The translations under genes and the position numbers were made by a program. This document shows positions 24,321 through 30,006 of a DNA stretch of 64,000 bases, piece by piece. Each line of letters starts with the position of its first letter. Positions within the stretch are counted from its first letter, which is position 1. The stretch comes from Prosthecobacter sp. (GTDB taxonomy: Bacteria; Verrucomicrobiota; Verrucomicrobiia; Verrucomicrobiales; Verrucomicrobiaceae): contig NZ_JAXMIH010000014.1 in the NCBI RefSeq assembly GCF_034366625.1, positions 186,001 to 250,000 of the forward strand. The letters are read 5' to 3'. The notes beneath the pieces are model-generated. The model ran no database searches, was not told the DNA's origin, and was given only the letters and a program-made list of their open reading frames with translations.

Positions 24321-25121
24321 ATGCGCCTCGAAAACAAAGTCATCATCGTCACAGGAAGCTGCACCGGCATTGGCAAAGCCATCGCGAAGCGTTGCGTCGC
24401 GGAAGGAGCCAAAGTCGTGATTCATGGATTGGAACAAGACCTCGGCGATCAAACCCTGGCCGAACTCGGTGCAGAGAACGCCACGCTTGTCATCAAAGAC
24501 CTCGCCGACGAGGACGCGCCTCAGTTGCTCGTCGAAAAGGCCGTGGCGGCCTTCGGCAAACTCGACGCCGTCGTTAACAACGCCGCGCAAGTCGGTCTCG
24601 GCAACATTCACGACACCGATGGCAAGTGGTTCCGCCGCATGCTCGAAATCAACTGCGTGGTGCCTTATCTCCTCATCCGAGCCGCCTTGCCGCATCTCCG
24701 CGAGTCGCACGGCAGCGTCATCAACATCGGCAGCGTCAACGCCTGGAGCGGCGAGCCGAATCTGATGCCCTACAGCGTCTCCAAAGGGGCGCTCATGACC
24801 CTGACGCGCAATCTGGGTGACACGCTCATGCGTGAGGACAGCGTGCGCGTGAATCAAATCAACCCCGGCTGGGTGCTCACCGAGAATGAGGCCAAGCGCA
24901 AACGCGAGCATGGCCTCAAGGACGACTGGTATGCCGATCTGCCCAAGGTCTATGCCCCCGCCGGCCGCATCCTCTGGCCGGAGGAGATCGCCGCCTGCGC
25001 CGCGTGGCTCCTCGCCGACGAATGCGGTCCCATCAGCGGCCAGGTCTTTGATCTGGAGCAGCATCCCTTCATCGGCCGCAATCCGCCGAAGGATGCGACG
25101 ACGATTCCGGCGAAGCCTTGA
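24321..25121 (+). CDS. Short-chain dehydrogenase/reductase (SDR)
   Basis: 266 residues, classical SDR. The nucleotide motif TGSCTGIGKAIA is at 12-23, NNAA is present, the catalytic Ser is in INIGSVNAW, and the Tyr-x-x-x-Lys is in MPYSVSKGALMTLTRNL. The closing PAGRILWPEEIAACAAWLLADECGPISGQVFD is typical of sugar and glucose-dehydrogenase-like SDRs. It probably acts on a sugar or sugar acid, as in many Verrucomicrobiota carbohydrate loci. The gene ends 49 bp before the ECF sigma gene but shows no functional link to it. Confidence 0.9.
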   Translation: MRLENKVIIVTGSCTGIGKAIAKRCVAEGAKVVIHGLEQDLGDQTLAELGAENATLVIKDLADEDAPQLLVEKAVAAFGKLDAVVNNAAQVGLGNIHDTDGKWFRRMLEINCVVPYLLIRAALPHLRESHGSVINIGSVNAWSGEPNLMPYSVSKGALMTLTRNLGDTLMREDSVRVNQINPGWVLTENEAKRKREHGLKDDWYADLPKVYAPAGRILWPEEIAACAAWLLADECGPISGQVFDLEQHPFIGRNPPKDATTIPAKP

Positions 25122-25170
25122 GATTGCCCCGTGAATTGACAGGCGGTTGTGACACGGCCACCCTGTTTGC

Positions 25171-25701
25171 GTGGACGAGACTCTCCCGCCTGCCAAAGCC
25201 GATGCCGGCTCCTCGGAACTGCTGCCGCAGGTCTATGATGATCTGCGCAAGCTGGCCCGCGGGATGGTGGCGGCCAATGCCCAGCAGACGCTGACGGCGA
25301 CGGCGCTGGTGCATGAGGCGTGGATGCGCGTGTCCAAAGACGCCGCACCGCGCTGGGAAAACCGCCGTCACTTCTTCGGCGCGGCGGCGCAGGCCATGCG
25401 GCGCATCCTGATCAATCGCGCGCGTGACAAACACCGCCTCAAGCGCGGCGGGAATCATGAGCATGTGGTCCTGGAGGATGTGGAGATCGCCGCGCCTGCG
25501 CCCGAGGAGGAGCTGCTGGCGCTGGATGAGGCGCTGGAGCGGCTGGCGAAAGAGGACCCGTTCCTCGCCGAGGTCGTGGGGTTGCGCCATTTCGTGGGGC
25601 TGAAGTGGCATGAGATCGCGGAGATGACCGGAGTCGAAGAGCGGGAGCTGCACCGGCAGTGGACCTTCGTGCGCGCCTGGCTACGAACCGAGCTGACCTG
25701 A
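25171..25701 (+). CDS. ECF RNA polymerase sigma factor (TIGR02999-like, kinase-associated type)
   Basis: 176 residues from a GTG start. Sigma region 2 contains LLPQVYDDLRKLARGMV, TLTATALVHEAWMRV and the FFGAAAQAMRRILINRARDKHRLKRGG stretch that is diagnostic of the TIGR02999 ECF family. Region 4 is FVGLKWHEIAEMTGVEERELHRQWTFVRAWL. This family is expanded in Planctomycetes, Acidobacteria and Verrucomicrobiota and is usually encoded next to a Ser/Thr kinase rather than an anti-sigma factor, as here. A consensus-like TTGACA lies at 25136-25141 but its matching -10 box is poor. The likely targets are the three promoters with TTTTTTGCCG-N14-CGGGGCATG at 25703, 27843 and 28427. Confidence 0.92.
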   Translation: MDETLPPAKADAGSSELLPQVYDDLRKLARGMVAANAQQTLTATALVHEAWMRVSKDAAPRWENRRHFFGAAAQAMRRILINRARDKHRLKRGGNHEHVVLEDVEIAAPAPEEELLALDEALERLAKEDPFLAEVVGLRHFVGLKWHEIAEMTGVEERELHRQWTFVRAWLRTELT

Positions 25702-25702
25702 A

Positions 25703-25735
25703 TTTTTTGCCGTTTTGGACCCGTGACGGGGCATG
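25703..25735 (+). promoter_or_regulatory. Candidate ECF sigma promoter 1 (upstream of the receptor kinase)
   Basis: TTTTTTGCCG at 25703-25712, 14 bases, then CGGGGCATG at 25727-25735. The box starts right at the sigma gene's stop codon and ends 43 bases before the kinase ATG (25779). The two boxes and the spacing are identical to sites at 27843 and 28427. Confidence 0.8.
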
Positions 25736-25778
25736 TCTTGCTGACGATGCCATTTTTTCGACTTTCGACCTGCCAGCC

Positions 25779-27821
25779 ATGTCCTCTCCCTCTTCCCCCA
25801 TTTCACGACAGAAGGACATCTTCCTCGCGGCACGCGAGATCGCGGACTCCGGGGAGCGTTCCCGCTTCATCAAGGAGGCATGCGGTGACGACGCGGAGCT
25901 ACTGCGGCGCATTGAGGCGATGCTGGAGACGGAGGCTGCGCCGGACGATTTTCTGGAGCCGGACCCGACTCTGGCAGAATCCGTCGCGATACCCGGCACG
26001 GGGGACAAGGTCGGTTACTTCGGCGACTATGTGCTGCTGGACGAGATCGCCCACGGTTCTTCCGGCGTGGTGTTTCGGGCCCGGCAGGTGTCTCTGGACC
26101 GTGTGGTGGCGCTGAAGATGCTGCGGGACCGCCCGCTGCTGACCACGGAGGCGGACACCCGGCGGCTGCGTGCGGAGGCCACGGCCGCCGCCTCGTTGGA
26201 TCACCCGAACATCGTGCCCATCTATGAGGTCGGTGAGCATGAGGGGCAGCCGTATTTCAGCATGAAGCTCGTCGAGGGTGGCACGCTGCAGTTTCGCGCG
26301 GCAGAGTACCAGACAGATCCCCTCAAAGCCGTGGCACTCATGGTCAAAGTTGCGCGCGCGGTGCATCACGCGCACGCCAAGGGCATCCTGCATCGCGATT
26401 TGAAGCCGGGGAACATCCTGCTCGATGCCGCCGGTGAGCCGCACATCACCGACTTCGGCCTGGCGCGAAAAATCGGCCTGGAGTCGGGTTTGACGATGAC
26501 CGGGATGGCGATGGGCACGCCGCACTACATGAGCCCGGAGCAGGCGCGCGGTGGCGGCCGCGAACTCACACCCGCCACGGACATCTACAGTCTCGGCGCG
26601 ATCCTTTATGAGCTGGTGGAAGGCCGGCACATGTTTCAGTCGGAAGACTTGATCGAGCTGCTAAAGCAGGTGGCTGAGAAATCGCCGCCCGCGCCGCGCA
26701 CGCCGCACCATGATCTCGCGGCGATCATGATGAAGTGCCTGGAGAAGTCTCCGTCCGCCCGCTACGCCACCGCGGAGGAGCTGGCCGCTGCCCTGGAGCG
26801 CTGGTTGCAAACACGGCCCGCCTCCTCACAGCCTGAGGCCGTGGCGAAACGAACGCGCCTCCGCCGGGCGGCGTGGATCACGGCGGCGGTCGCCGCCTGC
26901 GTGGCGCTCGTGGCCGGCCTCACGCTCTGGATGTCGGGGCGTGTCGTGGTGACCACACTGGAGGATGAACTGGATCCCCCTGGCATCACGGGCACGGGCC
27001 TGTCCTTGCGCGAAGCCGTGCGTGATGCGCCGGAAGGCGGGCGCATCGTCTTTTCCCGCGCAGGCAAAATCACGCTGTCCAGCGCGCTCGGCGGCATCCA
27101 CCTCTCCCGGCGCATTGAGATCAGCGGTCCTGATGTGGAGATTCACAACGGTCCTGACATCAATCGCGCGATGTTCATCGACTCAGGCGCGAAAGTCAGC
27201 TTGCGCGGTCTCACGCTCAGCGGCGAGGCAGAATCCGCCCATCTGCACGGCAGCGTGGGTGCGATCGAGAACAACGGCGAACTGACGGCCACGGACTGCC
27301 GCTTCTTGAAGCATGGCGGCGGCGGTCTTGGAGGGGCCATCCTCAGCGAAGGCGGGCTCACGCTGCGGCGCTGCGTGTTTCAGGGCAACTTCAGCAACAT
27401 GATGGGCGGCGCGCTCAACATCAAATGCACCGGTGCGCAGCAGGTGGACATCGAGGACTGCCTCTTCACCGGCAATGTCTGTCACGGCAACGGTGGCAGT
27501 GCCATCAACATCGCCTTGCAATCATCGCAGGCTCAGGCGCGTCTGACGCGTTGCACCGTGACCGGCAACATCTGGGATCCCGCCTCCAAGCGCGATCCCG
27601 CCACCGCACAGGAACGTTTGGCCACACCTTCCGTGCTTGTGGGCGGAGCGCTCCGCTGCCGGGGCAACCCGGTCACCCTGGACCACTGCATCGTGGCTGG
27701 CAATGAGGCGCGAAGCGCTGGCGAGAGGGACATTTACGGCGAATTCACCCAGGCCGGTCCCAACTTCATCGGCGGCGACCCGAAGGACGCGCCTGCCGGT
27801 CTTGGTGTCAGCGTGAAGTGA
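25779..27821 (+). CDS. Receptor Ser/Thr protein kinase with extracytoplasmic CSLREA/parallel beta-helix domain
   Basis: 680 residues from ATG 25779; an upstream in-frame ATG overlaps the sigma gene and the promoter, so it is not used. Residues 10-60 are the helical N-terminal segment common in these kinases (DIFLAAREI...LLRRIEAML). The kinase domain (about 84-345) has HGSSGVVFRA, Lys113, HRDLKPGN (205-212), DFGLAR (225-230) and GTPHYMSPEQ, so it should be active. A transmembrane helix lies at about 364-385. The outer part begins VVTTLEDELDP..LSLREA (408-413), a CSLREA-type entry motif, then beta-helix turns with repeated cysteines (LTATDCRFLKHGG, LTLRRCVFQGNF, VDIEDCLFTGN, ARLTRCTVTGN). It probably senses an envelope or surface cue and acts on the adjacent sigma factor. 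Confidence 0.9.
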   Translation: MSSPSSPISRQKDIFLAAREIADSGERSRFIKEACGDDAELLRRIEAMLETEAAPDDFLEPDPTLAESVAIPGTGDKVGYFGDYVLLDEIAHGSSGVVFRARQVSLDRVVALKMLRDRPLLTTEADTRRLRAEATAAASLDHPNIVPIYEVGEHEGQPYFSMKLVEGGTLQFRAAEYQTDPLKAVALMVKVARAVHHAHAKGILHRDLKPGNILLDAAGEPHITDFGLARKIGLESGLTMTGMAMGTPHYMSPEQARGGGRELTPATDIYSLGAILYELVEGRHMFQSEDLIELLKQVAEKSPPAPRTPHHDLAAIMMKCLEKSPSARYATAEELAAALERWLQTRPASSQPEAVAKRTRLRRAAWITAAVAACVALVAGLTLWMSGRVVVTTLEDELDPPGITGTGLSLREAVRDAPEGGRIVFSRAGKITLSSALGGIHLSRRIEISGPDVEIHNGPDINRAMFIDSGAKVSLRGLTLSGEAESAHLHGSVGAIENNGELTATDCRFLKHGGGGLGGAILSEGGLTLRRCVFQGNFSNMMGGALNIKCTGAQQVDIEDCLFTGNVCHGNGGSAINIALQSSQAQARLTRCTVTGNIWDPASKRDPATAQERLATPSVLVGGALRCRGNPVTLDHCIVAGNEARSAGERDIYGEFTQAGPNFIGGDPKDAPAGLGVSVK

Positions 27822-27842
27822 GGCGTTGAGATTATTTTCAGC

Positions 27843-27875
27843 TTTTTTGCCGGAATCATCCCTGGGCGGGGCATG
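27843..27875 (+). promoter_or_regulatory. Candidate ECF sigma promoter 2 (upstream of small exported protein 1)
   Basis: TTTTTTGCCG at 27843-27852, 14 bases, CGGGGCATG at 27867-27875; the gene's ATG is at 27922. The boxes are identical to the sites at 25703 and 28427. Confidence 0.8.
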
Positions 27876-27921
27876 AGCAGGTGAACGGAGCTTTGCGCTC
27901 CGTCCGTCACCATCCGCCGCC

Positions 27922-28266
27922 ATGAAACACACCTTCCGCTTCCTCGTCCGCGTCGCCTGCGCGATTCTCCTCCTCAGCACCGCCACCATGGCCCTCGCTG
28001 ATCTACCTCAACAACGCAAAGCTCTCGACGAACTCCAGGCCGCGAAGAAAGCCGACGATCCGATGCCCTTGCTGGAGTCCGCCAAGAACCGCATCACCAA
28101 AGCCAACAAGGGCAACAAGGGCGGGGACAAGGAGGACGTGATCGACAAGATCGACGAGGCCATCAAGGAGTTGCAAGCCGGCAACAAGAGCAAAATGGAG
28201 CAGAAAATCAACGCGGCCATCGCCAACCTCCATCAGGGCAAAGACAAGTCGAAACGTCCGAAATGA
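27922..28266 (+). CDS. Small exported helical protein 1 of the ECF/kinase locus
   Basis: 114 residues. A signal peptide (MKHTFRFLVRVACAILLLSTATMALA) precedes a highly charged, helical mature part. The sequence LPQQRKALDELQAAKKADDP, MPLLESAKNRITKA and VIDKIDEAIKELQAGN can be aligned along its whole length with the next gene's product, so they are paralogues. There are no cysteines in the mature part and no known domain. The mature protein is Lys/Asn-rich and could be a periplasmic helical-hairpin protein. It follows the second ECF-type promoter and is closed by a terminator at 28309-28340, so it is its own transcript. Confidence 0.8.
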   Translation: MKHTFRFLVRVACAILLLSTATMALADLPQQRKALDELQAAKKADDPMPLLESAKNRITKANKGNKGGDKEDVIDKIDEAIKELQAGNKSKMEQKINAAIANLHQGKDKSKRPK

Positions 28267-28308
28267 GGCGTGGTGGCGGCACGGCCGCATGTTGAACCGC
28301 GCTTTTGG

Positions 28309-28340
28309 GAGCACCTGCACGGCAGGTGCTCTTTTGTTTT
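28309..28340 (+). terminator. Rho-independent terminator after small exported protein 1
   Basis: A perfect 10-bp stem GAGCACCTGC/GCAGGTGCTC (28309-28318 with 28322-28331), a 3-base loop and the tail ttttgtttt. This means the two small genes are separate transcripts, each with its own copy of the promoter. Confidence 0.9.
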
Positions 28341-28426
28341 CAGCGTGAGGTGCGCGTTCTGGTGAACGTGCCATGGCGACCCCGCCTCCAGGCCCCTCAC
28401 GCGGCACTCTTTGAAAATAACCTGGC

Positions 28427-28459
28427 TTTTTTGCCGGAACGAAACTCGGACGGGGCATG
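28427..28459 (+). promoter_or_regulatory. Candidate ECF sigma promoter 3 (upstream of small exported protein 2)
   Basis: TTTTTTGCCG at 28427-28436, 14 bases, CGGGGCATG at 28451-28459; the gene starts at 28529. The flank shared with site 2 extends to GGAA after the first box. Confidence 0.8.
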
Positions 28460-28528
28460 TGGTGAGTGAACCCTGGGAACTCACTCCCAGACCACCCAAA
28501 CGACACCCACCCAAACACATCCAAGAAT

Positions 28529-28846
28529 ATGAACCACTACCTCACCCGCATCCTCGCCGTCGTCTGCATCACGCTCGGACTATGCAGCACGCTGAATGCC
28601 GTCGAACCCCGCATGGAGAAGGCCATCCAGCTTCTTCAGCAGGCGCAAGCCTCCCCGAACCCCGTGCCGCTGCTCGAAAAAGCCCAGGAGCACCTCCAGA
28701 ACGCCACGGGCAACAAGGCCGGCTTCAAAGTTGATGCCGTCAAGACCATCAAGCAGGCCATCAAAGCTGCCCAGCGCGGCGGCAACGTCCAGGCGCAGAT
28801 CGGCCAGGCCATCGCGCAGGTCCAGGCCGGCATCAGCGCCCGCTGA
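28529..28846 (+). CDS. Small exported helical protein 2 of the ECF/kinase locus
   Basis: 105 residues from ATG 28529; a longer ORF starts at 28466 but would bury the signal peptide. The signal peptide is MNHYLTRILAVVCITLGLCSTLNA. The mature part, from EPRMEKAIQLLQQAQ, aligns with the preceding paralogue: PVPLLEKAQEHLQNATGNKA..VDAVKTIKQAIKAAQRG against the corresponding MPLLESAKNRI region. It is predicted helical and amphipathic, with no cysteine in the mature part. I know of no named family. It follows the third ECF-type promoter. The function is unknown; it may be a stress-induced periplasmic protein. Confidence 0.8.
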   Translation: MNHYLTRILAVVCITLGLCSTLNAVEPRMEKAIQLLQQAQASPNPVPLLEKAQEHLQNATGNKAGFKVDAVKTIKQAIKAAQRGGNVQAQIGQAIAQVQAGISAR

Positions 28847-28897
28847 CATCCCGGCCGCCTGCTGCCGGTCAAACCACGCTGGCAGTGTCTCTGCCCG

Positions 28898-28939
28898 CCA
28901 TCCCCGGCAAACGGAGGCTTCTCCGATGGCCAGGGGTGG
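28898..28939 (+). terminator. Possible hairpin terminator after small exported protein 2
   Basis: A two-part inverted structure, with outer CCATCCCCGGC pairing with GCCAGGGGTGG apart from bulges and inner CGGAG-gctt-CTCCG. It lies about 50 bases past the stop. There is no clear T run, so termination is uncertain. Confidence 0.4.
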
Positions 28940-29118
28940 CGATTTCGTCGGATCGTGAGGAGCTCGTGGTTGCTACGGCAAGACCGTGCGCACGGGAACT
29001 GGGATAGTTTGGCTGGCAATCGGAGCCGCGAGTCGCAAATCACACACACTTTGTCGTGGCGGTGGTGATAGCCGCTGGCTCATTGGTTCGTCATCTGACG
29101 TTCTTCACTCCCACCACC

Positions 29119-30006
29119 ATGCCCAAACTCGCCGCCTTCCCCAAAGCCTTCATGCAGGCCCTCTGCAAAGAAGGGACGATGACCGTCTCCGAATGGATCA
29201 CGCTCGCCTCCAAACTCGATGTGCAGGGCCTCGAATGGTATGCGGGCTTCCTGGAGATGGCGGATGAGAAGAACTGGCCACGCTTCCGCCAGGAGGTCGA
29301 AGACACTGGCAAGGTGATCCCCATGATGTGCTGCTCGCCGGATTTCACGCATCCCAACGCCTCCTTCCGCGAAAAGGAGATCGCGAAGCAGAAACGCTGG
29401 ATCGACATGACGCACACGCTCGGTGGATCGTATTGCCGTGTGCTCAGCGGTCAGCGTCGGCCGGAGCTGACGCTGGATGAAGGTGTGAAACTGGCTGCTG
29501 AGTCGATCTACGCCTGCCTGCCGTATGCGCAGGAGCGCGACATCACGCTGATCATCGAGAACCACTACAAAGACGACTTCTGGGAGTATCCCGAGTTCGC
29601 GCAGAAGATGGATGTCTTCTGCAAGCTCGTCGATGCCGTGAATCACCCGAACTTCGGCGTGAACTACGACCCCTCGAACACCTACCTCGCGGGTGAGGAC
29701 CCCATCGAGTTACTGAAACGTGTTTCACATCGCGTCGTCACCATGCACGCCAGCGACCGCTACCTCGCCGAGGGCACCATCGAAGACCTTCGCAAAGAAG
29801 AAGACGGTGCCCAAGGCTACGCCAAACGCCTCCGCCACGGCGAGATCGGCAAAGGCCTCAACGACTACGACGCCATCTTCAGCGAACTTAAAAGCAAGGG
29901 CTTCAACGGCTGGATCAGCATCGAAGACGGTGTCGATGGTATGGAGCAGCTCGCGAGAAGCGTCGAGTTCTTGAAGAAGAAGATCGCGCAGCACTGGCAA
30001 CCGTAG
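29119..30006 (+). CDS. Sugar phosphate isomerase/epimerase-like TIM-barrel protein
   Basis: 295 residues from ATG 29119 (MPKLAAFPKAF); the frame is open further upstream but the homology begins here. The AP-endonuclease-2/xylose-isomerase-like barrel is recognised from GLEWYAGFLE, ITLIIENHY (metal Glu), NFGVNYDPSNTYLAGEDP, VVTMHASDRY and FNGWISIEDGVDGMEQLARSVEFL. These are typical of IolE/YcjR-like isomerases and epimerases in Verrucomicrobiota and Planctomycetes. The substrate is likely a sugar or keto-inositol. A CTTTGTCGTGG element lies about 60 bp upstream. Confidence 0.9.
   Translation: MPKLAAFPKAFMQALCKEGTMTVSEWITLASKLDVQGLEWYAGFLEMADEKNWPRFRQEVEDTGKVIPMMCCSPDFTHPNASFREKEIAKQKRWIDMTHTLGGSYCRVLSGQRRPELTLDEGVKLAAESIYACLPYAQERDITLIIENHYKDDFWEYPEFAQKMDVFCKLVDAVNHPNFGVNYDPSNTYLAGEDPIELLKRVSHRVVTMHASDRYLAEGTIEDLRKEEDGAQGYAKRLRHGEIGKGLNDYDAIFSELKSKGFNGWISIEDGVDGMEQLARSVEFLKKKIAQHWQP

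Follow-up and report, generated by a model that had tools for sequence, protein, structure and literature searches.

The closest described relatives of the locus reported here are the EcfP/PknT system of Vibrio parahaemolyticus and the EcfK/PknS system of Xanthomonas citri, in each of which an extracytoplasmic function (ECF) sigma factor is encoded beside a transmembrane Ser/Thr kinase. In the parts of PMC8999054 and PMC13147305 available to us, members of their group, ECF43, are described as lacking the acidic DAED motif and as having the consensus QTTA. EcfP carries STTA, the second Thr of which is phosphorylated directly by PknT. Control by a neighboring Ser/Thr kinase has also been proposed for the Planctomycetes groups ECF59, ECF61, ECF62 and ECF217, and kinase-linked groups other than ECF43 retain DAED or a similar acidic motif (PMC8999054). 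We analyzed a stretch of 64,000 nt from Prosthecobacter sp. (contig NZ_JAXMIH010000014.1, positions 186,001 to 250,000; hereafter the window), in which an ECF sigma factor gene is followed by genes for a receptor-type Ser/Thr kinase and two small exported proteins.

We consider it probable that this locus encodes an ECF43-like, kinase-activated sigma factor with a private, self-amplifying regulon of the kinase gene and the two exported protein genes, read from a common two-box promoter. In the proposed mechanism, the membrane kinase, with an extracytoplasmic beta-helix sensor, would phosphorylate the neighboring sigma factor, most likely at Thr44 in region 2.2, a region that lacks the acidic residues normally used for RNA polymerase binding. 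The activated sigma factor would then recognize TTTTTTGCCG-N14-CGGGGCATG (N14, any 14 bases) and transcribe the kinase gene, giving positive feedback, together with the two genes for exported four-helix proteins. The assignment of the boxes as putative promoters is well supported by the comparisons below, while we infer the binding of the sigma factor to them, its phosphorylation by the kinase, the signal sensed and the role of the small proteins. The phosphorylation step is put forward by analogy with ECF43. The features of the locus are listed in Table 1.

Table 1. Features of the sigma factor-kinase locus, in positions of the window
Feature	Positions	Strand	Basis or predicted role
Gene for a 176-aa ECF sigma factor (TIGR02999 / Sigma70_ECF), start codon GTG	25171..25701	+	Profile matches
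Candidate phosphorylation site: codon for Thr44, the third residue of TATA in region 2.2	25300..25302	+	Alignment of 21 sigma factors; EcfP position as described in the available parts of PMC8999054 and PMC13147305
Site 1, TTTTTTGCCG-N14-CGGGGCATG	25703..25735	+	Predicted kinase gene promoter
Receptor-type Ser/Thr kinase gene, 680 aa	25779..27821	+	PF00069, 159 bits, residues 85-333
Kinase residues 388-680, predicted to form a beta-helix ectodomain outside the cytoplasm	26940..27818	+	PF13229 and structure model
Site 2, TTTTTTGCCG-N14-CGGGGCATG	27843..27875	+	Predicted promoter for small gene 1
Gene of small exported protein 1 (114 aa; signal peptide recognized by eye; four-helix bundle predicted)	27922..28266	+	Alignment, structure model and weak PF16785 match
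Terminator-like hairpin, 12 pairs then a T-rich tail, behind small gene 1	28307..28333	+	Terminator scan
Site 3, TTTTTTGCCG-N14-CGGGGCATG	28427..28459	+	Predicted promoter for small gene 2
Gene of small exported protein 2 (105 aa), a paralog of protein 1	28529..28846	+	33-35% identity to protein 1

An earlier reading of the window from its letters alone (the sequence-only reading) had reported three copies of the motif shortly upstream of the kinase gene and the two small genes, and this was confirmed exactly: all three lie on the forward strand, match 19 of 19 box bases and have 14-base spacers of three different sequences. They end 44, 47 and 70 nt before the start codons of the kinase gene (ATG) and the first and second small open reading frames, respectively, the start at 28529 of the last having been picked from an alignment with its paralogs. 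The motif consists of a -35-like part, TTGCCG, and a -10-like part, GGGGCATG, and dinucleotide shuffling of the window gave on average 0.06 matches with up to three mismatches (100 shuffles). One explanation would make the triple site a side effect, devoid of regulatory meaning, of the small gene having recently been copied along with the DNA upstream of it. It could draw on the paralogy of the two small genes, but it is scarcely credible given that the spacers differ although the boxes are identical, that the divergence of the paralogs is too great for recent copying, and that in other genera these boxes stand ahead of unrelated genes.

The genome-wide search that the sequence-only reading had proposed found the motif to be rare. 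The assembly of the window (G000; 6.65 Mb in 30 contigs, 96.67% complete) held no fourth copy with up to two mismatches, and the four additional matches at three mismatches (one for a reversed-pattern control) were all within open frames of at least 265 codons. A looser pattern of 15 fixed bases with up to two mismatches gave 37 matches against nine for its reversed control, three of them being the known sites. We did not count unlinked targets from this pattern: 17 of the 34 extra matches (L210-L226) were all inside open frames of at least 423 codons, although an open frame over a site does not prove coding in G+C-rich DNA, and the remaining 17 comprised locus L006 and 16 places outside the examined set. 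The sigma factor may have a weak unlinked target elsewhere in the genome. No copy of the motif was found upstream of the sigma gene in the window, so that any feedback would run via the kinase gene. The terminator scan returned five sites against 2.9 expected, of which the hairpin between small gene 1 and site 3 had the longest stem, and its position fits separate transcription.

We then compared nine loci of the close sigma clade (the window, L057-L062, L111 and L113), taking L110, L112 and L109 as repeats of the loci in genomes G002, G020 and G022 and not counting them again. In 16 slots, defined once the gene maps were known as the intervals following the sigma gene, the kinase gene and, for the window only, the first small gene, the motif with its 14-base spacing was found in 15 with up to four mismatches; the first slot of L113 had six at best. 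Counterparts of site 1 were located in the gap behind the sigma gene of L057, L058, L059, L061 and L062 (2-4 mismatches) and L113, and counterparts of site 2 behind the kinase gene of L057, L058, L059, L062, L111 and L113 (0-4 mismatches), while in L060 a site precedes the gene of a 164-aa exported protein. The mean number of mismatches over the slots was 2.06 for a spacer of 14 and at least 4.94 for every other spacer from 8 to 20. In the 2.76 million strand-bases of 89 other loci, which include two chosen for their stray matches (L105 and L106), there were 13 matches with up to four mismatches, a density by which, in our arithmetic, the slots, roughly 3.1 kb in all, should hold approximately 0.014 matches by chance. 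Two further sites lie ahead of extra kinase paralogs in G002 and G020, and among the 18 sites aligned in total, TGCCG and positions 27, 29 and 31 were invariant. In two of the five other two-site loci, an unusual -10 box was common to both sites, GGTGCATG in L059 and TGCGCATG in L113, as would be expected if a sigma factor and its promoters change together.

The occurrence of the sites also followed that of the sigma clade. Relatives of the sigma factor were present in 23 of 68 genomes of the family, and a close one, defined by a best copy of at least 64% identity (the next genome being at 55%), in six: G000, G022, G002, G004, G009 and G020. Sites with at most one mismatch were detected in five of these six (G000, G002, G004, G009 and G020) versus one of the 62 others, G017 (Fisher p 3.4e-6). 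The G017 site sits inside a 288-codon open frame, and the G022 sigma gene reaches a contig end, leaving the region downstream out of view. Across 387 genomes of the phylum, such sites were found in four, namely G000, G002 and, with single sites within open frames, G180 and G257. The regulon is thus argued for by sites that are rare in the genome, keep their slot, orientation and spacing across the related loci, and co-occur with the sigma clade. The motif is neither common nor absent from orthologous loci, which recur with it in other genera, and the regulon proposed by the sequence-only reading, which was to fall in that event, is supported as far as sequence can probe it.

The aligned sites bear on another explanation, in which the boxes would be an operator for a different DNA-binding regulator, as an imperfect TGCC...GGCA dyad, or form a leader-RNA hairpin. 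TGCC-GGCA pairing is possible in 12 of the 18 sites, one of them through a G-T pair, but it is broken in the other six and the left arm never compensates. One orientation toward the downstream gene holds in all 16 slots (in a slot search on the same strand only), and the boxes co-occur with one sigma clade. We therefore regard a dyad or hairpin as improbable, and sigma-dependent promoters remain our assignment of the boxes.

Behind 84 farther sigma genes (up to 57% identity; 260 nt each), no site was found with up to four mismatches, the lowest number being five, in four of them; the close-clade L111 and L112 likewise had no site in the 260 nt behind the sigma gene. One motif for the whole sigma family was not supported, with GCCG-N18-GCAT in only 1 of 30 farther members (0.07 expected). 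In these 30, CGCAT, a string picked post hoc from the sequences, was found in 10 (3.2 expected; reached in 0 of 400 shuffles) and CGCAT followed by G or T in eight (2.2 expected), whereas GCAT followed by G or T, in 10, was scarcely enriched (6.5 expected; 32 of 400 shuffles), and none of the unselected single 5- and 6-mers exceeded the shuffle maximum. The commonest spaced pair was TGAG-N19-CGCA, in 5 of 30, counted without a shuffle control. We treat CGCAT-type signals in farther members as a lead only. A different two-box pattern, TGA(G/T)TCA ... CGCATG, was observed in L063 and L070 ahead of both the sigma gene and the kinase gene, which suggests possible autoregulation of the sigma factor in that clade.

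The classification of the sigma factor in the sequence-only reading was borne out. It matched TIGR02999 with 180.2 bits (cut-off 126.15) and PF07638 with 151.3 bits (cut-off 21.1), and it was the only one above the cut-off among the 18 proteins of this genome with a TIGR02999 match, while a search of solved structures gave no relevant match up to E = 1. Its region 2.2 reads TATA where ordinary ECF factors carry DAED. Thr was present at the third position of TATA in all 21 aligned sigma factors of the family search. A wider set had it in 95 of 95, the 80 named loci in that set coming partly from a search whose seed includes this Thr. None of the eight neighboring proteins scanned (21.1-32.6 kb) matched an anti-sigma family, which fits the earlier remark that no anti-sigma gene is nearby. 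Like EcfP and EcfK, the sigma factor hence lacks DAED in region 2.2, carries Thr at the position phosphorylated in EcfP and has a Hanks-type kinase gene next door with no anti-sigma match, a likeness judged by published descriptions of region 2.2 and gene neighborhood. It shares proposed control by an adjacent Ser/Thr kinase with ECF59, ECF61, ECF62 and ECF217 but differs from them in lacking the acidic motif that they keep. The direct phosphorylation of EcfP by PknT, which the sequence-only reading had mentioned, is described in PMC8999054 and PMC13147305. The known outputs of EcfP and EcfK, a polymyxin-resistance regulon and a type VI secretion system, differ from the kinase and small exported proteins that would be the output here, and we did not find a TGCCG-N18-GCATG target promoter for ECF43 in the available parts of PMC8999054, PMC13147305 and PMC8103513.

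The kinase motifs HRDLKPxN and DFG were invariant across four homologs, and a hydrophobic segment was recognized by eye near residues 363-385. The ectodomain scored 24.9 bits against the right-handed beta-helix family PF13229, slightly under the cut-off of 25.9. In a structure model built from four sequences, with a mean predicted local distance difference test score (pLDDT) of 59.7 and a kinase domain mostly below 50, the ectodomain was beta-rich and most of its 10-residue blocks had a pLDDT of 70-95. The by-eye segment and the predicted beta-helix suggest that the kinase may sense an envelope cue.

Several observations weigh against a kinase-activated regulon of this form. Within L057, L058 and L062 the two sites do not have the same boxes, L111 has no site between the sigma and kinase genes, and the L060 sigma gene has no kinase gene directly after it. 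A scan of 25050-29120 for sigma-70-type consensus sequences returned no promoter, none for the sigma gene either, which also lacks a motif copy upstream. A near-identical third copy of small gene 1 lies elsewhere in the genome (L205, C7:134826-135170; 86% identity) without the motif in the upstream stretch examined, and must therefore be expressed otherwise; an addiction-module-like gene pair, recognized by eye, follows it. EcfK T51A is still functional, with linker phosphosites contributing (PMC13147305), so that Thr at the phospho-position need not be essential. This last finding, and the view that DAED-containing kinase-linked groups work differently (PMC8999054), would also suit an explanation in which the boxes are promoters but the limit on the sigma factor is set by how much of it is made or by an unlinked factor, the kinase acting on other substrates. 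We hold this to be unlikely, if the most serious of the alternatives, as the acidic motif is missing and Thr occupies the phospho-position in 21 of 21 sigma factors of the family search and the kinase gene lies directly downstream of the sigma gene in seven of the nine close-clade loci, counting the split kinase of L062. Given the missing motif and the conserved Thr, activation by the kinase appears more likely.

Both small proteins have signal peptides by eye. The model of protein 1 is a four-helix bundle with a mean pLDDT of 75.3 and core helices at about 90 and more. SmbP has histidine-rich metal-binding repeats. The small proteins resemble it in size and predicted four-helix bundle, but they scored below the PF16785 (SMBP) gathering cut-off of 29 (22.1 bits for protein 1 and 13.6 for protein 2) and, with one histidine per mature protein as read from the alignment, lack such repeats, for which reason we do not call them metal-binding. 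In a search of PDB sequences with the small-protein profile, SmbP matched over most of its length at E = 0.039, in row 5 of 9, outscored by YqeY and designed helical proteins, and metal binding was not supported by this likeness. Foldseek ranked the SmbP structure 3u8v 16th (TM score 0.77 on the target) with no match at E of 0.001 or less, SmbP was not among the 50 rows of a second structure aligner, and cytochrome b562 and other helical bundles matched in the structure searches too. The family was present in 16 of the 68 genomes, and it is wider than the regulon since the listed copies outside G000 and G009 lie away from such a locus.

The sensors and outputs varied among the close-clade loci. 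An ectodomain of beta-helix type was assigned to the kinases of the window, L057, L059, L111 and L062, a C-type-lectin-like one to that of L058 (PF00059, 25.3 bits; cut-off 22.6) and a leucine-rich one to that of L113 (25 bits, under the cut-off of 27). In the window and L059 the gene behind the second site encoded a small four-helix protein, whereas the other loci had exported proteins of 1615 aa (L058), 313 aa (L062), 164 aa (L111) and 504 aa (L113) at this place; in L057 the contig ends behind this site. The same boxes thus precede unrelated exported genes in different loci and other genera. A strict pairing of ectodomain and output was rejected: beta-helix kinases precede the small proteins (window and L059), the 164-aa protein with a YQGRV group (L111) and the 313-aa protein (L062). 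It is conceivable, though we think it rather doubtful, that the sigma factor, the kinase domain and the two-box promoter together make up a portable switch with swappable sensors and outputs, the exported output acting back on the ectodomain outside the cytoplasm.

Some further features of these loci were observed. Some 2.1 kb past the start of the sigma gene in L062, the beta-helix kinase is divided between two open frames (516 and 239 aa). An exported pair recurs behind the second site, comprising a long protein starting YQGRV...FRFAL (L058, L111 and L113) and a 298-301-aa GPRTSANY protein (L058 and L111); its L111 members had no Pfam match. Downstream of the window locus, a TIM-barrel gene (29119-30006) shares 94-95% identity with the gene that immediately precedes the sigma gene in G020 and G004 (L060 and L061), against only about 60% identity for the sigma factors of the loci sharing it. 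In L064, L065, L068, L069 and L072, a long conserved leader and then a Lys/Pro/Ala-rich histone-H1-like gene take the place of the kinase gene behind a related sigma gene.

Our literature search found no paper joining Verrucomicrobia, ECF sigma factors and serine threonine kinase and none on TIGR02999 sigma factors, although a published logo for the clade is possible. In the parts of the literature available, tests of whether a kinase directly activates an ECF sigma factor come from a few proteobacteria, and the many relatives in Verrucomicrobiota and Planctomycetota are apparently known from sequence only. A sharply defined target promoter for one sigma clade would make its regulons readable from sequence and the pairing of sigma factor and promoter testable, and the swapped ectodomains raise the question of what each of them senses. 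With three putative promoters within 3.7 kb and no other copy at up to two mismatches in the genome, the locus would represent a minimal natural positive-feedback switch.

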